Notes under the pieces: generated by a model
The model's database searches: none
Told to the model about the DNA's origin: nothing
What the model saw: only the letters and a program-made list of their open reading frames with translations
From: Limnohabitans sp.
Lineage (GTDB): Bacteria; Pseudomonadota; Gammaproteobacteria; Burkholderiales; Burkholderiaceae_C
Assembly: GCA_024642215.1 (NCBI GenBank)
Contig: JAHEBO010000030.1
Span: 1-33,041, forward strand
DNA: 33,041 nucleotides
Direction of reading: 5' to 3'
Shown: positions 2,770 to 12,221 of the stretch, piece after piece
How the letters are laid out: each line of letters starts with the position of its first letter
How positions within the stretch are numbered: the stretch's first letter is position 1
Translations under genes and position numbers: made by a program

Positions 2770-4431
2770 ATGACAACCCAACGCAGCAGCTTTTTAAAGT
2801 CTCCACCCAACGCATGGCACCCAGCTTGGGTTGCTGTGCTAGGCAGCCTCTGGCTTGCCAGCATTGGTAATTTTGCGCTTTGGCAGCAAGTGCACCAATT
2901 GCCAGAGGTCTCTGGCTTTCGGGGACTGGCCTTTGCACTCGGCTTTGGCGCCATCATTGCGGCCGCACTCACTGCCCTCCTGAGCATTGTGAATTGGAGA
3001 GGCCTGCTCAAACCAGTGCTCACTGTGTTCTTTTTGAGTGCAGCCAGTGGCGCTTACTTCATGGTGAGCTACGGCATCGTGATCGACAGCACCATGATCA
3101 CCAATGTGCTTCAAACCGACACCAAAGAAGCCTTGGATTTGATGAACTGGCGCATGCTCATCAGCCTTTTGCTGCTGGGCATTCTGCCGTCTTGGGTGCT
3201 CTGGAAAACGCCGCTTAAAACGCTGCGTTTAAGCCATCAGGCCTTGAGCAACACATTCACTGCGGTGGCATCGGTTGTGGTCATTGTGGCAGCCTTGTTG
3301 GCCGTGTTTCAAGACTTCTCGTCCATCATGCGCAACCACACGCAATTGCGCTACTTGGTTAACCCTTTGAACAGTTTTTACGCCATTGGCATGGTGGCTG
3401 CAAAGCCTTTTCAACGCGACAACAAGACATTGCTGCCCATTGGCCAGGATGCCAAAACCACGGCCCTCAAGCCAAGCGACAAGCCACCTTTGCTTTTACT
3501 GGTTTTGGGCGAAACAGCGCGCATGGGCAACTTTGGCGTGAACGGTTACGAGCGCAATACCAGCCCCGAGTTGAGCCAAGAGAGCATCATCAGCCTCAAA
3601 GGCGTGATGTCTTGCGGCACCAGTACAGCCACATCAGTGCCGTGCATGTTTTCACACATGGGCAAAGAAGATTTTGAAGCAAGAAAGAACAACTATGAAA
3701 GCCTGATCGATGTTTTGCACCACGCAGGCTTGGCTGTTTTATGGATCGACAACCAGTCGGGTTGCAAAGGTGTGTGCGAGCGCGTGCCGCAAGTTCTCAC
3801 CAAAGAACTCAAACACCCCAGTCTTTGTAAAGACGGTGAATGCTTTGACGAAATCATGCTGCAGCAATTGGATGAACGCATCCAAGCCTTGCCAGCAGAG
3901 CGTCGTGCCAAAGGTGTGGTGGTGGTCATGCACCAGATGGGTAGCCATGGCCCTGCCTATTACAAACGCGTCCCCGAGAACTTCAAGAAGTTTCAGCCTG
4001 AGTGCAAAAGCAATGCGCTTCAAGAATGTACTCGCGAGCAGGTGGTCAACGCGTTTGACAACACCATTCTCTACACGGATCACTTTTTAGGGCAAGCCAT
4101 TCAATGGCTTAAAAAATCAGAAGGCAATTCCGCTCCCGCCCTTTTGTACGTCTCTGACCATGGTGAGTCTTTGGGTGAAAACAACTTGTACCTGCACGGC
4201 TTGCCTTACCGTGTTGCACCCGATTTTCAAAAGCGCGTGCCCTGGATCACCTGGTGGTCGTCTCGCTTTGAGAAGCAATCAGGCTTGTCTCGAACTTGCT
4301 TGAAAAACAAAGCGCAAGCGCCACTTACACACGACAACTATTTTCACTCAGTCCTAGGCCTGATGGGTGTTAGCTCAGAGGTGTATCAGGCCAAGTTAGA
4401 TGTGCATGCGGACTGCCGCAGCAAATCATAA
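2770..4431 (+). CDS. eptA: Lipid A phosphoethanolamine transferase (EptA/MCR family)
   Basis: Inner-membrane enzyme of the YhjW/YjdB/YijP sulfatase-fold family that moves phosphoethanolamine from phosphatidylethanolamine to lipid A or a related envelope acceptor, lowering surface charge. Length 553 is usual. About five membrane helices fill the N-terminus (roughly 18-40, 50-74, 80-104, 127-145, 160-181); a periplasmic catalytic domain follows from about 235. The nucleophile is Thr249 in LGETARMGNFG; other metal-site motifs are GSHGP (392-396), SDHGESLGE (Asp463, His464) and LHGLPY (His476). Cys pairs at 282/292, 332/336 and 353/358 match the disulfides of the family. The 3' end abuts the convergent DUF1854 stop (TCATAA). 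The exact acceptor is not decided by sequence. Confidence 0.9.
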   Translation: MTTQRSSFLKSPPNAWHPAWVAVLGSLWLASIGNFALWQQVHQLPEVSGFRGLAFALGFGAIIAAALTALLSIVNWRGLLKPVLTVFFLSAASGAYFMVSYGIVIDSTMITNVLQTDTKEALDLMNWRMLISLLLLGILPSWVLWKTPLKTLRLSHQALSNTFTAVASVVVIVAALLAVFQDFSSIMRNHTQLRYLVNPLNSFYAIGMVAAKPFQRDNKTLLPIGQDAKTTALKPSDKPPLLLLVLGETARMGNFGVNGYERNTSPELSQESIISLKGVMSCGTSTATSVPCMFSHMGKEDFEARKNNYESLIDVLHHAGLAVLWIDNQSGCKGVCERVPQVLTKELKHPSLCKDGECFDEIMLQQLDERIQALPAERRAKGVVVVMHQMGSHGPAYYKRVPENFKKFQPECKSNALQECTREQVVNAFDNTILYTDHFLGQAIQWLKKSEGNSAPALLYVSDHGESLGENNLYLHGLPYRVAPDFQKRVPWITWWSSRFEKQSGLSRTCLKNKAQAPLTHDNYFHSVLGLMGVSSEVYQAKLDVHADCRSKS

Positions 4432-4902
4432 AAATCGGTCAAGCAGCTTGCGTGAGTGACGGTCCATCTGGGACAAGTCCCGAATTAAAAACTGCACACC
4501 GTGACCATCGGTGACCAGCAACACACTGCCGGACAAACGCCGAATATCCTCTTCGCCTTTCAGCAGCAAAGTGGTGGGGCCACGGTCGGTTTCGATGTCC
4601 CATGTGCTGGGCGTTACAAAACTGCTCACCTCATGCAATTTTAAAATTTGAGGCATGAATTCACGTTGGTTCATGGCCGTCAAAATATTGCAGCGCACTG
4701 TTTCCGGCAATTGGTTCAGATGGGGTATCCACAGCAACTCCTTGCCATCGATGTCCACCACCGCAATACCTTCCTCAGGTGCGGCCACCGGAAACGAACG
4801 CACGGCCATCACGTGGTCGTTCTGAACGCCATCTGCGCTCACAAAAAACCAACGACCTGATGGGCCTTGGTCAAATTGAATGTTCATCAGAATCTCGTTC
4901 AT
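4426..4902 (-). CDS. DUF1854 protein, cyanophycin-locus associated
   Basis: A 158-residue soluble protein of the DUF1854 family, whose biochemical role is unknown. The family is known to sit beside cyanophycin synthetase genes and a dedicated ABC transporter in Burkholderiales, exactly the context here. No signal peptide or membrane helix is visible. The start ATG (4902-4900) overlaps the stop TGA of the ABC gene in an ATGA, which indicates translational coupling and a shared stoichiometry. An in-frame Met six codons later is a less likely start. It runs convergently into eptA with directly adjoining stop codons, so no terminator separates them. A regulatory or accessory subunit for the ABC protein is an inference from coupling only. 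Confidence 0.85.
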   Translation of the reverse strand: MNEILMNIQFDQGPSGRWFFVSADGVQNDHVMAVRSFPVAAPEEGIAVVDIDGKELLWIPHLNQLPETVRCNILTAMNQREFMPQILKLHEVSSFVTPSTWDIETDRGPTTLLLKGEEDIRRLSGSVLLVTDGHGVQFLIRDLSQMDRHSRKLLDRFL

Positions 4903-7214
4903 GGCGTCACCGACTCTCTCAAAACAGCACCTTCCGATTCAGCTTGTCTTTGCTGTGCTTCGTACAAACGCCAGTAGGCTCCTTTGGACTCGATCAACGC
5001 ATCGTGCGTGCCTTCTTCCACAATCAAGCCTTTGTCCATGACCACCAAACGATCGGCTTTGCGCAAAGTAGACAAGCGGTGCGCAATGGCAATGGTGGTC
5101 CGACCACGGACCAAATTGTCCAAGGCGTTTTGAATTTCTTTTTCAGTTTCGGTGTCCACGGCCGAAGTGGCTTCGTCCAAGATCAAAATGCGGGGGTTGA
5201 TCAGCAAGGCCCGCGCAATGGAAATGCGCTGACGCTCGCCACCCGACAAACCTTGACCGCGCTCCCCCACCAAAGAATCGTAAGCTTGTGGCATGCGCAA
5301 AATAAATTCATGTGCGTGCGCAGCGCGGGCTGCGGCCACAATTTCTTCACGCGTTGCATCGGGCATACCATAGGCAATGTTGTCTGCAATGGTGCCAAAG
5401 AACAAAAAGGGCTCTTGCAAGACCAATCCAATGTGCCTGCGGTAATCGGCCACCTTCAATTGCTTGATGTCGACACCGTCGAGCGCAATGCGGCCTTCTG
5501 ATAAATCATAAAATCGGCACATTAAATTGACCAAGGTACTCTTACCTGAACCACTGTGCCCCACCAAGCCAATCATCTCGCCGGGTTGGATGTCTAAGTT
5601 CAAATGTTTGATGACGGCGCGGTTGCCATATCGGAAGCTGGCATCGGTGAGCGTAATGCGGCCTTCTACTTTGGGCAAAGCCACTGGGTTGACAGGTTCT
5701 GGCACGCTGGACACATGGTCCAAAATTTCAAAAATGCGTTTGGCACCTGAAGCTGCTTTTTGTGTGGTCGAGACGATGCGGCTCATGGAATCCAGGCGCG
5801 TGTAGAAACGTCCGATGTAAGCCAAAAATGCCGTGAGCACACCCACCGTTATTTGGTCTTTGGACACCAACCAAATGCCAAAGCCCCACACCACCAACAA
5901 GCCAATTTCGGTCATCAAGGTCACGGTTGGTGAGAACACTGACCACACACGGTTCAAGCGATCGTTCACCGCCAAGTTGTGTTTGTTGGCATCGATGAAA
6001 CGCTGCGCTTCACGGTCTTCTTGCGCAAAGGCTTTGACCACTCGAATACCCGGAATGGTGTCGGCCAACACGTTGGTCACTTCAGACCACACGCGGTCAA
6101 TTTTTTCAAAACCAGTGCGCAGTTTTTCTCGCACCACGTGAATCAGCCATCCGATGAATGGCAGCGGCAACAATGTGACCAAAGCCAGTGTGGGATTGAT
6201 GGAGAACAAGATGATGGCGGTCATCATGATCATCAATATGTCAGTTGCGAAATCAAGTAAATGCAGTGACAAGAAAACATTGATTCGATCGGTTTCACTG
6301 CCAATGCGAGCAATCAAATCGCCGGTGCGACGCCCTCCAAAATACTCAAGTGACAGCTTCAACAAATGTTGATACGTGGTGGTGCGCAAATCGGCGCCAA
6401 TGCGCTCGGACACCAAGGCCAGAATGTAAGTTTTAACCCACCCCAAACTCCATGCCACCAACGCTGAGCCCAGAAGGCCGAGCAGATACCATGACACGGT
6501 CACAGGGTCGATGGGTTTGCCGTTTTGATAGGGAATCAGAACATCGTCCATCAAGGGCATGGTGAGATAAGGCGGCACCAAAGTGGCAGCGGTTGACGCC
6601 AGGGTTAAGACAAAACCCAAGAGCAATTGCCATTGATACGGTCTGGCAAATCGCCAGAGCTTGAAAAGTGTCCATGTGGATGGCGGCGCTTGTTCTTTTT
6701 CAACACAAACGGGGCATTCATCATCGGCTGCATCGACCACGTTCTGACATACGGGACAAAGCACATGGCGCATGAATTGCTCAACTGCAGCCGGATCCTC
6801 ATTCAGGGATTTGCCCAGGAAAGTGGCCGTTTGCGCGGCCTGGCGTTGCTGGTTTTCAAAGCGCAACTTCCAGCGCAACACGGCAGCCTCAAGGCCCAAA
6901 GTAAACCGCCAAGCTGCCAATCGCTGGCCGCCTAAATGCAAGGCCAGTGTGCCAACCCCGGCGTGATCCAGTACGCGCAGGCTTAAATCGGCGCTAAGCT
7001 TCCAGAAATTCCAACTTTTTTGAGCTTCGTTGGTGGAGATGACCCTTTGATCGGTCAAAATAACCAAGATTTTTTTGAAGCTTAATTCATCATTCAAGTC
7101 AACCTCTAGCCAGGCTAGGACGTTTTCACCAAGGTGAACTTGAGACAACACGCCCTCCTGCCAGAACAAAGGCAATCCCAGCAAATCAGTGGGAGGATGG
7201 GTTTTGGAGTTCAT
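4899..7214 (-). CDS. ABC exporter with N-terminal zinc-ribbon module, cyanophycin-locus associated
   Basis: Half-size ABC exporter, 771 residues, longer than the usual 580-600 because of an extra N-terminal part of about 180 residues. That part resembles a bacterial PH-like beta domain (about 15-120, inference) followed by a zinc ribbon, Cys153/156 and Cys167/170 in two CPVC motifs. A six-helix transmembrane domain covers about 190-480. The nucleotide-binding domain is complete: Walker A GHSGSGKST (552-560), Q-loop Gln600, signature LSGGE (656-660), Walker B ILILDE (676-681) and switch His712. It should homodimerise in the inner membrane. It is coupled to the DUF1854 gene and divergent from cphA'. 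NCBI-type naming calls this a cyanophycin metabolism-associated ABC transporter; its cargo is unknown. No convincing ribosome binding site precedes the ATG. Confidence 0.93.
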   Translation of the reverse strand: MNSKTHPPTDLLGLPLFWQEGVLSQVHLGENVLAWLEVDLNDELSFKKILVILTDQRVISTNEAQKSWNFWKLSADLSLRVLDHAGVGTLALHLGGQRLAAWRFTLGLEAAVLRWKLRFENQQRQAAQTATFLGKSLNEDPAAVEQFMRHVLCPVCQNVVDAADDECPVCVEKEQAPPSTWTLFKLWRFARPYQWQLLLGFVLTLASTAATLVPPYLTMPLMDDVLIPYQNGKPIDPVTVSWYLLGLLGSALVAWSLGWVKTYILALVSERIGADLRTTTYQHLLKLSLEYFGGRRTGDLIARIGSETDRINVFLSLHLLDFATDILMIMMTAIILFSINPTLALVTLLPLPFIGWLIHVVREKLRTGFEKIDRVWSEVTNVLADTIPGIRVVKAFAQEDREAQRFIDANKHNLAVNDRLNRVWSVFSPTVTLMTEIGLLVVWGFGIWLVSKDQITVGVLTAFLAYIGRFYTRLDSMSRIVSTTQKAASGAKRIFEILDHVSSVPEPVNPVALPKVEGRITLTDASFRYGNRAVIKHLNLDIQPGEMIGLVGHSGSGKSTLVNLMCRFYDLSEGRIALDGVDIKQLKVADYRRHIGLVLQEPFLFFGTIADNIAYGMPDATREEIVAAARAAHAHEFILRMPQAYDSLVGERGQGLSGGERQRISIARALLINPRILILDEATSAVDTETEKEIQNALDNLVRGRTTIAIAHRLSTLRKADRLVVMDKGLIVEEGTHDALIESKGAYWRLYEAQQRQAESEGAVLRESVTP

Positions 7215-7400: not shown

Positions 7401-9578
7401 ATGAGTTCTAAAGACATCAAATTTTTAAGGATGACCCATCTTAAGGGTCCCAACATCTGGACATACCGTCCCGTGATGGAGGCTTGGATCGATATTGGTG
7501 ATCTTGAAGATAGCCCTTCCAACACCCTTCCCGGCTTCAATGAACGCCTCCAAGAAATGCTACCTGGGCTTGTGGAGCATCGCTGCAGCGTGGGAGAACG
7601 TGGCGGTTTCCTGCAAAGATTGACCGAAGGCACTTGGCCTGGTCATATCATGGAGCACGTCGCGTTGGAACTGCAAAACCGCGCAGGCATGCAAACAGGT
7701 TTTGGCAAAGCCCGCGAGGCGGGTCCGCGTGGCATTTACAAGGTGGTCATTCGCACGCGCAATGAAACTGTCAGCCGCGCCGCCCTTCAGGCGGCCCGAG
7801 ACCTGGTCATGGCGGCCATCGAAAACCGCCCTTACCCAGTCCAACAAGTCATTGCCGACCTCACCCAAATGGTCGACCAATTGTGCATAGGCCCGAGCAC
7901 TGCCTGCATTGTCGATGCCGCCGCCGAGCGCAACATACCCGCCATCCGCCTCAACGACGGCAATTTGGTTCAACTGGGCTATGGCGCCAGCCAGCGCCGT
8001 ATTTGGACGGCCGAAACCGACCAAACCAGTGCCATTGCCGAGGGTGTATCCAAAGACAAAGACCTCACCAAAAGCCTGCTGGCCAATTGCGGCGTGCCTG
8101 TTCCCGAGGGTCGCAACGTGGCATCACCTGAAGAAGCCTGGGAAGCGGCCCAAGACATTGGCCTGCCCGTTTGCGTCAAGCCCGTCGATGGCAACCATGC
8201 CCGCGGCGTTTCCCTAGAACTGCGAACTCAAGCTGAAGTTGAAGCGGCTTACCATTTGGCCGAAGCCGAAGGCAGCGATGTTTTGGTTGAACGGCACATC
8301 TTGGGAGATGAGCATCGCCTGTTGGTGGTAGGCGGCAAAGTGGTTGCAGCCAACAAAGGCGAAGTGGCCAGCGTGGTGGGCGATGGCGTCCACACGGTCG
8401 AGCAATTGATTGAGATTCAAATCAACTCCGATCCTCGTCGCGGCGAAGAAGAAGATTTCCCCCTTGATACCATCCGACTCAAAGATCACACCACTGCCGT
8501 GCTTGAGCTCAAGCGCCAAGGCCTCACGGGTGACAGCGTGCCTGAGCAAGGTCGCAGCGTCATGGTCATGCGAACTGGCAATATGGCCATCGACGTGACC
8601 GATTTGGTCCACCCCGACGTGGCCGAGTTGGCTGCCTTGGCAGCCCGCATTGTGGGCTTGGACATTGCCGGCGTCGATTTGGTGGCACAAGACATTTCCA
8701 AACCCATGAAAGCGCAAGGCGCGGCCATTGTGGAAGTGAACGCTGGCCCAGGCTTGTTGATGCACTTAAAACCAGCCACCGGATCAGCTCGCCCTGTCGG
8801 CCAAGCCATTGCAGCGCATTTGTTTGCGCCCGACTCTGAGCCGCGTATTCCTGTGGTGGGCCTGATTGGTGAAACAAACACCACCGGCACCAGCCACCTC
8901 ATTGCCTGGTTGCTGCATTTGCAAGGTTTGCAAACAGGCCTGGCCTCCGCCAAAGGTTTGTTCTTGGGCGAACGTTGTTTGCAAAGCCAAAACGGCATGG
9001 AATGGGAATCTGCCCAACGCTTGCTCATCAATCGCTCCGTTCAGGCTGCGGTATTTGAAACCACTGCGCGACACTTATTGGCTGAAGGCCTCCCTTATGA
9101 TCGGTGCCAAGTGGGCGTCATTACCTCCATGCCCAAGGCCGAAGGTCTGCAAGACCTCTACATCCAAAGCGATGCGCAAATGCCCAATGTCATTCGCACT
9201 CAAATGGATGTGGTGCTCGACACTGGCATGGCGGTCTTGAATGCCGAAGACCCCGAAGTGGCCAACTTGGCGCAATACTGCGACGGCGAAGTTACCTACT
9301 TTGCAAGCTCCGAAGATCACCCCCTCATTGCCCAACACCGCGGCCAAAATGGCCGGGTGGTGTTCTGGCGCAAAAACCATTTGGTTTTGGCACAAGGCGA
9401 TCAAGAAATTGACGCACTCAATCGCCAATTGCCGGCGATTGACAAGCTGCTTAAAAATCAACATCTCACTTGCGTCGAAGTTTTAGCCGCCTCGGCCACT
9501 GCCTGGGCACTGGGCATCAACACTGATTTGATCCGCGCAGGCATCAAGAGTTTTGGTCAAAGCCCTGGGTCTCATTGA
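7401..9578 (+). CDS. cphA': Cyanophycin synthetase paralogue CphA' with decayed Mur-ligase part
   Basis: Paralogue of CphA, 725 residues. The start ATG at 7401 gives MSSKDIKFLRM, as in family members; ATG 7431 is an alternative behind AAGG. It keeps the N-terminal domain and an ATP-grasp domain (KPVDGNHARGV about 260-270, IVEVNAGPG about 444), but the loop that reads NLSTGGTATDV in CphA is shortened to GNMAIDV here. The Mur-ligase P-loop, GTNGKTTT in CphA, reads GETNTTGTS (about 490-498) and lacks its Lys. The protein stops at the point where the C-terminal Mur lobe should begin, about 150 residues short; only 57 bp separate it from cphA, so the lobe is deleted, not frameshifted. It is expected to be non-polymerising alone, perhaps a partner or regulator of CphA. 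In cyanobacteria, CphA2 also lacks a working Mur part but polymerises beta-Asp-Arg dipeptides. Confidence 0.9.
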   Translation: MSSKDIKFLRMTHLKGPNIWTYRPVMEAWIDIGDLEDSPSNTLPGFNERLQEMLPGLVEHRCSVGERGGFLQRLTEGTWPGHIMEHVALELQNRAGMQTGFGKAREAGPRGIYKVVIRTRNETVSRAALQAARDLVMAAIENRPYPVQQVIADLTQMVDQLCIGPSTACIVDAAAERNIPAIRLNDGNLVQLGYGASQRRIWTAETDQTSAIAEGVSKDKDLTKSLLANCGVPVPEGRNVASPEEAWEAAQDIGLPVCVKPVDGNHARGVSLELRTQAEVEAAYHLAEAEGSDVLVERHILGDEHRLLVVGGKVVAANKGEVASVVGDGVHTVEQLIEIQINSDPRRGEEEDFPLDTIRLKDHTTAVLELKRQGLTGDSVPEQGRSVMVMRTGNMAIDVTDLVHPDVAELAALAARIVGLDIAGVDLVAQDISKPMKAQGAAIVEVNAGPGLLMHLKPATGSARPVGQAIAAHLFAPDSEPRIPVVGLIGETNTTGTSHLIAWLLHLQGLQTGLASAKGLFLGERCLQSQNGMEWESAQRLLINRSVQAAVFETTARHLLAEGLPYDRCQVGVITSMPKAEGLQDLYIQSDAQMPNVIRTQMDVVLDTGMAVLNAEDPEVANLAQYCDGEVTYFASSEDHPLIAQHRGQNGRVVFWRKNHLVLAQGDQEIDALNRQLPAIDKLLKNQHLTCVEVLAASATAWALGINTDLIRAGIKSFGQSPGSH

Positions 9579-9584
9579 GACCCA
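9566..9584 (+). other. Perfect hairpin overlapping the cphA' stop codon
   Basis: TGGGTCTCA (9566-9574) and TGAGACCCA (9576-9584) are exact reverse complements around a single T; a realistic fold is an 8-bp stem with loop ATT. The TGA stop (9576-9578) lies in the right arm. There is no T-run, so it is more likely an mRNA stability or translation-coupling element between cphA' and cphA than a terminator. Confidence 0.5.
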
Positions 9585-9635
9585 AGCAGCCCCTTCAATC
9601 ACCAAGCGACGCGCTTCAAACAGGATATTTGCTTC

Positions 9636-12221
9636 ATGGAAGTTTCAAGAATTCGAGCTTTGCGGGGACCCAACTTATGGAGTCGACAAACCAGCATTGA
9701 AGCCATTGTCAGCTGCGTGCCTGAAGAACGAGACATGCTGCCTGGCAACGATTTCGAAAAGAAACTGCGTCGCATCTTTCCAGCAGTCGGTCCTTTAGAA
9801 GGCTCACGCCCGGGTCAGCCCGCCAGCATGGCCCACGCCCTCGAAAAAATCACCATCAGCTTGCAAAACCAAGCGGGATGTCCCGTCACCTTTAGCCGCA
9901 CCACGGCCACTGAGGAAGAAGGCATCTTCCAAGTGGTCGTCCAATACACCGAAGAAGCCGTCGGTCGATTGGCCCTTAACTGGGCCGAAAAACTTTGCCA
10001 AGCAGTGCAAACGCAATCGGCCTTCGATCTCAATCAGGCACTCGCTGAGCTGCGCGAGCTAGACGAAGACGTTCGCTTAGGCCCTTCCACTGGCGCCATC
10101 GTCGATGCAGCAGTCATCAAAGGCATCCCGTTTCGCCGCCTCACCGAAGGCAGCATGGTGCAGTTTGGTTGGGGTTCTAAACAACGCCGCATTCAAGCTG
10201 CAGAAACCGACACCACCAGTGCCATTGCCGAATCAATTGCACAAGACAAAGACCTCACCAAGTCTTTGTTGTTGGCAGCTGGCGTGCCCGTGCCCCTGGG
10301 CCGACCCGCAAAGGATTTGGAAGACGCTTGGAGCATTGCACAAAGCATCGGCTTGCCTGTGGTGGTCAAACCGCAAGATGGCAATCAAGGCAAAGGCGTC
10401 ACAGTCAACATCACTCAACGGGACCTGTTCAATCAGGCTTATGACACCGCTGCCCGCTACGGCGAAGTCTTGGTTGAGAAATTTTTACCTGGCAGTGATT
10501 ACCGCTTGCTGGTGGTGGGCAACAAACTTGTCGCAGCTGCTCGACGTGAGCCCCCTTTGGTGGTGGGCGATGGCATGCTCACAGTTCGCGAATTGGTTGA
10601 AAAAGTCAATGAAGACCCTCGTCGCGGTGATGGCCACTCCACGTCCCTCACCAAAATCAAATTCGATGACATCGCCATTGGTCGTTTGAAGTTGCAAGAC
10701 CTCGAACCTAACTCCGTGCCAGAAAAAGGACGCCGCGTTATTTTGCGCAACAACGCCAACTTGTCCACGGGTGGCACAGCCACTGACGTCACAGACGATG
10801 TGCACGCAGAAGTTGCAGCGCGTGCCGTGTCAGCAGCACAAATGGTGGGCGTAGATATTTGCGGCGTAGATGTGGTGTGCGAATCTGTCTTGAAACCCCT
10901 CGAAGAGCAAAACGGGGGCATCGTTGAAGTCAATGCAGCACCTGGCTTGCGCATGCACATCAGTCCCTCATTTGGCAAAGGCCGAAATGTCGGCAAAGCT
11001 GTCATCGACCACATGTTTCCCAATGGGGACAATGGCCGCATTCCGGTCATTGCGGTCACAGGTACCAATGGCAAAACCACCACGGTACGCCTCACTGCAC
11101 ACCTTCTCAAGGCCAACCAATTGCGCGTTGGCATGACCAACACCGATGGTGTGTATGTGAATGGTCGTCAAATTGACGACGGTGATTGCAGCGGACCCCG
11201 CAGTGCCCGCAATGTCTTGATGCACCCTGATGTCGATGCGGCTGTGTTTGAAACAGCTCGCGGGGGCTTGCTGCGTGAAGGCTTGGCCTTTGACCGTTGC
11301 CAAGTTGCCATCGTGACCAACATGGGTTCGGGCGATCATTTAGGCTTGAATTACATCACCACCCTCGAAGACCTCTCGGTCCTCAAGCGCGTGATTGTGC
11401 TCAACGTTGCCCCCGATGGCATGGCAGTCCTCAATGCCGCCGACCCCAAAGTGGCCATGATGGCCAACATGTGCCCCGGCGACGTCACTTTCTTTGCACT
11501 CGACCCACACCACCCTGTCTTGGCCACACACCGCGCACAAGGCAAGCGTGTGGTCTACACAGAAAATGGTCACATCGTGGCGCAGCAAGGCAAGAAGTTC
11601 TTTCGCATTGCATTAACTGAAGTGCCACTGACACGACAAGGTCACATTGGGTTTCAAACTGAAAACGTCATGGCAGCCGTTGCGGCTGCATGGGCTGTCA
11701 ATGTCCCATGGGAAATCATTGCGCAAGGCTTGTCCACCTTCATCAGCGACATTCAAGGTGTGCCCGGCCGTTTCAATGTGTTTGATTACAAAGGTGCCAC
11801 TGTGATTGCCGATTACGGCCACAACCCCGATGCCATTCAAGCCTTGGTTCACGCCGTAGACAACATGCCCGCCAACAAGCGTTCGGTGGTCATCAGTGGT
11901 GCTGGCGATCGCCGCGATCAAGACATTCGCGATCAAACGCAAATTTTAGGAACGGCCTTTGACGAAGTCATCTTGTACCAGGACGCTTGTCAACGCGGAC
12001 GCAGCGATGGTGAAGTGATTCAACTCTTGCGTGAAGGCCTCAACGGTGCCACACGCACCACACATGTACAAGACATACAAGGCGAATTCAATGCCATTGA
12101 TGCAGCCTTGGCACGTTTGTCTTCTGGTGATTTGTGCCTGATCCTCATCGACCAAGTTGAAGCAGCGCTTGCCTACATCCAAGGCAAGGTCAGCGAAAGC
12201 CAAGCAAGCTTGGCTAGCTGA
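9636..12221 (+). CDS. cphA: Cyanophycin synthetase
   Basis: Makes cyanophycin (multi-L-arginyl-poly-L-aspartate), a cytoplasmic nitrogen and carbon store, by adding Asp then Arg with one ATP each. Length 861 is normal. Visible parts: N-terminal domain (about 1-160); ATP-grasp domain that adds Asp, with KPQDGNQGKGV (about 245-255), the STGG loop (about 375) and IVEVNAAPGLRMH (about 430-442); Mur-ligase-like domain that adds Arg, with intact P-loop GTNGKTTT (476-483) and C-terminal lobe with ADYGHNPDA. The start ATG has AGGA about 10 nt upstream. It follows cphA' by 57 bp in the same unit. Its 3' end overlaps the convergent acyltransferase gene by 8 bp. No cyanophycinase or isoaspartyl dipeptidase lies in the window. 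Confidence 0.97.
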   Translation: MEVSRIRALRGPNLWSRQTSIEAIVSCVPEERDMLPGNDFEKKLRRIFPAVGPLEGSRPGQPASMAHALEKITISLQNQAGCPVTFSRTTATEEEGIFQVVVQYTEEAVGRLALNWAEKLCQAVQTQSAFDLNQALAELRELDEDVRLGPSTGAIVDAAVIKGIPFRRLTEGSMVQFGWGSKQRRIQAAETDTTSAIAESIAQDKDLTKSLLLAAGVPVPLGRPAKDLEDAWSIAQSIGLPVVVKPQDGNQGKGVTVNITQRDLFNQAYDTAARYGEVLVEKFLPGSDYRLLVVGNKLVAAARREPPLVVGDGMLTVRELVEKVNEDPRRGDGHSTSLTKIKFDDIAIGRLKLQDLEPNSVPEKGRRVILRNNANLSTGGTATDVTDDVHAEVAARAVSAAQMVGVDICGVDVVCESVLKPLEEQNGGIVEVNAAPGLRMHISPSFGKGRNVGKAVIDHMFPNGDNGRIPVIAVTGTNGKTTTVRLTAHLLKANQLRVGMTNTDGVYVNGRQIDDGDCSGPRSARNVLMHPDVDAAVFETARGGLLREGLAFDRCQVAIVTNMGSGDHLGLNYITTLEDLSVLKRVIVLNVAPDGMAVLNAADPKVAMMANMCPGDVTFFALDPHHPVLATHRAQGKRVVYTENGHIVAQQGKKFFRIALTEVPLTRQGHIGFQTENVMAAVAAAWAVNVPWEIIAQGLSTFISDIQGVPGRFNVFDYKGATVIADYGHNPDAIQALVHAVDNMPANKRSVVISGAGDRRDQDIRDQTQILGTAFDEVILYQDACQRGRSDGEVIQLLREGLNGATRTTHVQDIQGEFNAIDAALARLSSGDLCLILIDQVEAALAYIQGKVSESQASLAS
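12198..12215. terminator. Possible bidirectional hairpin at convergent 3' ends of cphA and the acyltransferase
   Basis: AGCCAAG (12198-12204) pairs with CTTGGCT (12209-12215) around CAAG. It lies in the last codons of cphA and covers part of the stop codon of the convergent gene. The symmetry would act on both strands, but there is no T-run, so termination is only suggested. Confidence 0.3.

Follow-up and report, generated by a model that had tools for sequence, protein, structure and literature searches.

Two neighbouring cyanophycin synthetase-like genes, cphA' and cphA, lie in the stretch of DNA analysed here, a 33,041-nucleotide sequence from Limnohabitans sp. that is referred to below as the window. 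They are flanked by genes already named by NCBI as cyanophycin-associated (NF052233 and NF052234), and the relevant features are the following.

4426..4902, minus strand: gene for a "cyanophycin metabolism-associated DUF1854 family protein" (NF052234)
4899..7214, minus strand: gene for a "cyanophycin metabolism-associated ABC transporter" (NF052233), divergent from cphA'
7401..9578, plus strand: cphA', 725 aa, from the ATG at 7401 to the stop at 9578; proposed primer-making (endo-cyanophycinase) subunit
7584..7658, plus strand: intact N-domain metallopeptidase motif of CphA', C62-x19-H82-xx-E85-H86, placed by alignment to 7LG5
7881..8843 (approximate boundaries), plus strand: G (ATP-grasp) domain of CphA', with several ATP-site residues and the H267 equivalent retained
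8580..8585, plus strand: N394-M395 of CphA', in the G-domain large loop (LSTGG), part of which is missing
8757..8759, plus strand: Leu453 of CphA', aligned with and replacing the aspartate-binding Arg458 (role of Arg458 as given in the accessible part of PMC9427784)
8844..9575 (approximate boundaries), plus strand: Mur core remnant of CphA', without lid
8868..8894, plus strand: degenerate Mur P-loop of CphA', GETNTTGTS
9579..9635, no strand: 57-bp spacing between the co-oriented cphA' and cphA
9636..12221, plus strand: cphA, 861 aa; proposed polymerising subunit, with most G and M motifs retained and Gln in place of His267
9780..9848, plus strand: broken peptidase site in the N domain of CphA, lacking the Cys with its neighbouring residues and having Lys for the second His

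Residues 7-721 of CphA' align to Synechocystis CphA1 (7LG5) and its relatives with an E value of 8e-140, and the alignment stops where the Mur lid starts; the CphA2 structures 8fxh and 7ta5 (the latter presumably a CphA2) rank sixth and seventh among the PDB alignments. Against TIGR02068, the CphA1 equivalog model with a cut-off of 850 bits, CphA scores above the threshold at 974.5 bits and CphA' below it at 706.7. The broader PRK14016 subfamily model places CphA' above its cut-off (996.6 versus 877). Automatic annotation is therefore likely to go on naming this protein a cyanophycin synthetase.

The original prediction described CphA' as a protein that had lost its Mur-ligase P-loop and C-terminal lobe beside an intact CphA, and the alignments bear out each of the losses that it listed. 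GTNGKTTT in the Mur P-loop of CphA aligns with GETNTTGTS in CphA', which lacks the Lys. The ATP-grasp loop is shortened, with RNNANLSTGGTATD in CphA against RTGNMAID in CphA'; the LSTGG region is five residues shorter, and the Asn of the large loop is still present. The Arg of APGLRMH in CphA (Arg458) is Leu in the GPGLLMH of CphA'. Finally, CphA' ends early, 57 bp before cphA, with its terminus aligned at about residue 703 of CphA, so that it lacks about 155 residues belonging to the Mur lid. Published work on CphA1 describes Lys499 as an ATP contact of the M domain and Asn394, in the large loop, as a contact of the incoming aspartate, whose recognition requires Arg458 (accessible part of PMC9427784). 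Because of the losses in the Mur P-loop, in LSTGG and at Arg458, addition of Arg by CphA' is very probably dead, and addition of Asp probably so.

One point had been overlooked: CphA' retains, and CphA has lost, the N-domain zinc-peptidase motif Cx19HxxEH. By alignment to 7LG5, C62, H82, E85 and H86 of CphA' correspond to the N-site residues C59, H79, E82 and H83 named for SuCphA1 (PMC9262961), and H60, F70, R73, E90 and Y113 match H57, F67, R70, E87 and Y110. The CphA of the window lacks the stretch bearing the Cys and has Lys for the second His. In other CphA1 enzymes, an N domain with Cx19HxxEH makes primers by cutting (PMC9262961). The endo-cyanophycinase activity of such a domain yields about 4-mers from (beta-Asp-Arg)n. 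The N domain of CphA' thus retains the residues of a site shown to be catalytic in a different CphA1, and the protein is not simply a pseudoenzyme. Where the original prediction had offered "a pseudoenzyme partner or priming/regulatory subunit", it is the priming role that these residues appear to support best, and the simple pseudoenzyme that they speak against.

A first scan of genome contigs found 203 relatives, among which the best 80 loci were retained and checked. Within these best 80, the motif was present in 81/81 CphA' (window included), and the site was absent in all 75 partner CphA that were read; the CphA of L041, which is in two pieces, was left out of this alignment. With the window excluded, the same 80 loci yielded 79 complete CphA', 71 of them truncated (719-742 aa) and 8 full-length, and a CphA' of exactly 725 aa recurred in 28/80 loci. 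Assembly error as the cause of the short protein is ruled out by this recurring truncation.

Since one of the first-scan patterns (WPGHIMEH) sat on the N site, a possible source of bias, the survey was repeated with the G and M part of CphA alone (residues 139-861, without the N domain) in 399 genomes of the same order. Matches were obtained in 147 genomes, 138 carrying the pair and 9 a single copy. The loci taken were the best 135 CphA places together with L253, with their upstream DNA. The resulting 139 CphA rows include one CphA' fragment at a contig end (L172) and two pieces of the L253 CphA, and the N region is in view in 137 CphA (136 loci and the window). The 134 CphA' rows comprise 133 loci and the window, one of them (L180) a fragment lacking the N site; contig ends remove all or part of CphA' in L172, L180, L190 and L219. 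The cphA gene is split over two frames at both L253 and L041, possibly through assembly error.

In this order-wide survey, Cx19HxxEH was intact, spacing included, in 133/133 CphA' that cover the region, as against 0/137 partner CphA (window included in both), counts that are not independent because CphA and CphA' each form one clade, so that a single old event may account for the complementary loss. The equivalents of H57, F67, R70 and E87 were likewise kept in 133/133 CphA'. Residual N-site residues persist to different extents in CphA: H79 in 120/137, E82 in 97/137, H83 in 9/137 and the Cys in none of the 137. The synthetase sites have the opposite distribution. S396-G399 are missing in 134/134 CphA' rows, two of which have no residue in the loop region at all; a loose STGG text pattern matched a single CphA' (L216), whose aligned row has no residues at S396-G399. 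Arg458 occurs in 0/133 readable CphA' rows, Lys499 of the Mur P-loop in 44 of the 132 rows having a residue there, and the Mur lid is absent in 124/134, one of these being a contig-cut fragment. CphA keeps S396-G399 in 137/139 rows and both Arg458 and Lys499 in 138/139, the remainder being fragments. The CphA' equivalents of H267 and Arg309 are kept in 131/133 and 133/133 rows, respectively, and both are present in the window. CphA itself lacks Glu215. At the position of the catalytic His267 it has Gln in 135/137 cases, a replacement that may mean altered chemistry or an altered substrate. Truncated CphA' is therefore not specific to one genome: it is widespread in Burkholderiales, being the usual condition in one of two sister clades there.

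Single-copy synthetases served as a control. Nine of the 147 matched genomes lack CphA' and have a single full-length CphA1 of a different type; all four N-site residues are present in 8/8 of these proteins, the ninth (genome G212) being split over contigs. A class-wide sample gave matches in 21/370 genomes, 18 of them outside the order, and the loci of those 18 were taken. Thirteen are single CphA1, all 13 with the four N-site residues; two are divergent proteins without them (L284 and L285). The single-copy total is thus 21/21, with a spacer of 19 residues in 6 and of 21 residues in 15, which makes this control looser than the main result; the 21-residue form is not known to cut. A Mur-ligase-like protein without N and G parts adjoins the single-copy CphA1 at many loci (L258, L260-L264, L267, L272, L276, L277 and L279-L283), and most single-copy CphA1 next to it have the 21-residue spacer.

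The three remaining loci outside the order, all from one family (f128: L268, L269 and L270), have the cphA'-cphA pair as well, which may have been acquired by transfer of the whole unit. Here CphA' has the motif in 3/3 despite a decaying ATP-grasp site, and CphA is without it in 3/3; the CphA' of L270, at 661 aa, has a large deletion in the G domain. Because these proteins keep the motif despite ATP-grasp decay, the N site is the feature retained in every readable CphA' row. A CphA1 with a dead N domain can also exist alone, as in the primer-dependent Tatumella enzyme TmCphA1 (PMC9262961). Five genomes of the order, all from family f7, have extra CphA1 copies (nine proteins) without the N site, and all five also carry the pair. 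The extra cphA locus (L255, L256, L257, L265 and L266) lies near a cyanophycinase gene, has two CphA1 genes in opposite orientation in 4/5 cases, and encodes Gln267 in all nine proteins.

For the phylogeny, a quick IQ-TREE run (LG+G4) was made on 130 rows, consisting of every third locus, all loci with full-length CphA' and controls. CphA and CphA' fall on separate sides of a branch with support of 100, and for this reason the pair probably stems from one old duplication; the long branches of the CphA' of L269 and L270 meet, and their exact place is unsure. Over the 55 CphA' rows the N-site residues undergo 0 changes, as do the ATP-grasp K of VKP and R309. The M domain of CphA' changes 4 times at K499, 8 at T500, 8 at D585 and 6 at H586, and its Mur lid at least 4 times (6 losses if no regain is allowed). 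Mapped on a tree, as the original prediction had proposed, the lid is thus repeatedly lost, the Mur P-loop drifts, and the N site stays constant within CphA'.

Conservation is distributed accordingly across the two proteins. Over 132 loci, the share of columns at least 98% constant in CphA' is 21.9% in N, 24.0% in G and 5.1% in M; in CphA it is 11.0% in N, 28.1% in G, 26.5% in M and 30.9% in the lid. The dN/dS of CphA' among 18 close sequences, a set in which dS is near saturation (median 1.37), is 0.042 overall, with 0.045 in N, 0.037 in G and 0.042 in M; a second set of 9 sequences gave 0.059. The CphA values of the "mid" set were not used, codons being unaligned across indels. CphA' is therefore under purifying selection, in keeping with the expectation that so long and clean a frame would not be a simple pseudogene, and a dN/dS of about 0.04 in all three domains rules out a decaying pseudogene. 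Gene order is constant, cphA' standing first and on the same strand in 132/132 pairs; the gap has a median of about 40 bp in the 122 pairs measured by a simple start rule, and the two genes may well be co-transcribed.

We consider it likely, from the residues of the two proteins, that the cphA'-cphA pair is a naturally split CphA1 in which CphA builds and CphA' makes primers by cutting. CphA would add Asp through its G domain and Arg through its M domain; alone, it should be primer-dependent, since its N-domain zinc peptidase is lost. CphA' would no longer ligate Arg, and probably not Asp either, while keeping the N-domain peptidase, and would cut the growing cyanophycin into segments of roughly four units that become new primers. 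The two proteins would act together, probably in a mixed oligomer, or close by. Such a division of labour has been achieved by engineering: a SuCphA1 heterodimer of N-G+M+ and N+G-M- chains makes cyanophycin. When no primer is added, heterodimers with split sites show somewhat lower activity than heterodimers in which a single chain bears every site, and the primer-dependent TmCphA1 can dispense with primer in the presence of a SuCphA1 whose N is live but whose G and M are dead (PMC9262961).

Several known systems may be compared with the pair. Synechocystis CphA1 (7LG5) has the same N, G and M domains and the same Cx19HxxEH residues as CphA', but carries all three sites on one chain, whereas here the cutting and building sites would lie on two proteins. 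The engineered heterodimer has the same spread of live and dead sites over two chains as is proposed here; it is, however, a laboratory construct of one gene, and the present pair is an old natural one. Ralstonia eutropha H16 CphA' probably belongs to the same clade, the Ralstonia and Cupriavidus loci in our survey having full-length CphA' without LSTGG, and differs in that its lid is retained. Adames et al. reportedly noted in 2013 that Ralstonia eutropha CphA' lacks the G-domain loop; to our knowledge, the N-site split was not discussed there. In the open-licence literature searched we found no description of an N-site split between CphA' and CphA. A cyanophycin synthetase made of two subunits that have lost complementary active sites would be a probably new form of a known enzyme. 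Two neighbouring cphA copies, which may correspond to such a pair, are evenly expressed in Accumulibacter (PMC10687191), a betaproteobacterium.

Some observations fit the split synthetase poorly. Constant columns are almost as frequent in the G domain of CphA' as in that of CphA (24.0% versus 28.1%), which suggests that this domain of CphA' still does something, perhaps in binding ATP or polymer or in assembly, and the invariant K of VKP and R309 would not be needed by a pure peptidase. The Gln at the catalytic His267 position of almost all CphA (135/137) is a further difficulty, as is the report that the R. eutropha H16 genes, when expressed, gave no detectable cyanophycin (accessible parts of PMC8560796 and PMC11362209).

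These points lend some weight to other readings. An unlikely one is that CphA' is a non-catalytic scaffold or regulator holding CphA in the right oligomer, its N site being a structural zinc site or a polymer-binding surface. In its favour, strong constraint persists in the G domain despite the loss of the aspartate-binding residues, and the N domain of known CphA1 also binds polymer (PMC9262961); but the general base E82, dispensable for a structural zinc site, is invariant in 133/133 CphA' against 97/137 CphA, and the f128 CphA' keep the N motif while lacking the ATP-grasp site. We give still less credence to a product other than bulk cyanophycin, with another side chain or in the form of short soluble oligomers that the neighbouring ABC transporter might export. 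The Gln for His267 and the missing Glu215 of CphA, the failure of the R. eutropha genes to yield cyanophycin (in the same parts of PMC8560796 and PMC11362209), and the ABC transporter and DUF1854 neighbours that accompany the pair would all agree with it. Against it, the remaining tested G and M motifs of CphA are kept, and CphA scores 974.5 against the NCBIfam cyanophycin synthetase cut-off of 850.

That the G domain of CphA' re-polymerises beta-Asp-Arg dipeptides in the manner of cyanobacterial CphA2, which joins such dipeptides with a single active site, is very improbable. The Mur P-loop and lid are missing in both (CphA2 as defined in the accessible part of PMC9427784), and His267 and Arg309 equivalents are kept in 131/133 and 133/133 CphA'; however, CphA2 has no N-site motif (PMC9262961), and the STGG residues are lost in 134/134 CphA' rows and Arg458 in 133/133 readable ones. 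The original prediction had set CphA' apart from CphA2 because of the altered ATP-grasp loop, and with the N-site motif present in the one and absent in the other, CphA' indeed does not look like a plain CphA2 analogue. A decaying duplicate on its way to a pseudogene, as the repeated lid loss (at least 4 changes, 6 losses without regain) and Mur P-loop drift might suggest, is hardly credible in view of dN/dS of about 0.04 in all three domains, a length conserved in near relatives, and one clade spanning many genera.

The split synthetase may also bear on the degradation of cyanophycin. A cyanophycinase scoring over the TIGR02069 cut-off was found in 12/138 pair genomes versus 9/9 single-copy genomes (Fisher p 4e-9, with relatedness ignored), and in 5 of those 12 the strongest copy lies near an extra cphA locus. 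Neither peptidase S51 nor asparaginase-2 (IaaA family) gave a match in the genome of the window, which is 92.8% complete. This low count agrees with a published gap: in the accessible part of PMC10206079, cyanophycinase is listed for 2.8% of 903 cphA1-bearing beta-proteobacterial genomes versus 70-100% in the other groups of the table, and Sharon and Schmeing describe the scarcity (3%) as unanticipated and suggest cyanophycinases of unknown kinds.

Two further genes travel with the pair. DUF1854 (NF052234) occurs in 137/138 pair genomes, 0/9 single-copy genomes and 0/252 others of the order sample, and the ABC transporter lies divergently upstream in 71 of the 72 loci with enough flank among the best 80 of 203 relatives. 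Together with CphA' and CphA, the transporter and DUF1854 seem to form a single module, and these two proteins might, for instance, export oligomers.

Sharon et al. pointed out that with building and cutting on one CphA1 chain, expression cannot set the balance between them (PMC9262961). More tentatively than the split itself, and as a possibility that we hold to be less than probable, CphA' may be the missing beta-proteobacterial cyanophycinase, a separate cutter through which building and cutting could be set independently and which would both make primers and mobilise or trim the polymer. The absence of CphB would then be explained, since CphA' as the cutter might also mobilise polymer or trim it for the ABC transporter.

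A large group of bacteria thus appears to have separated the building of cyanophycin from its cutting, and CphA' becomes a concrete candidate for the cyanophycinase lacking in beta-proteobacteria. If this is true, many proteins named cyanophycin synthetase would not be synthetases, and primer independence may be miscounted in this group where it is predicted from motifs.
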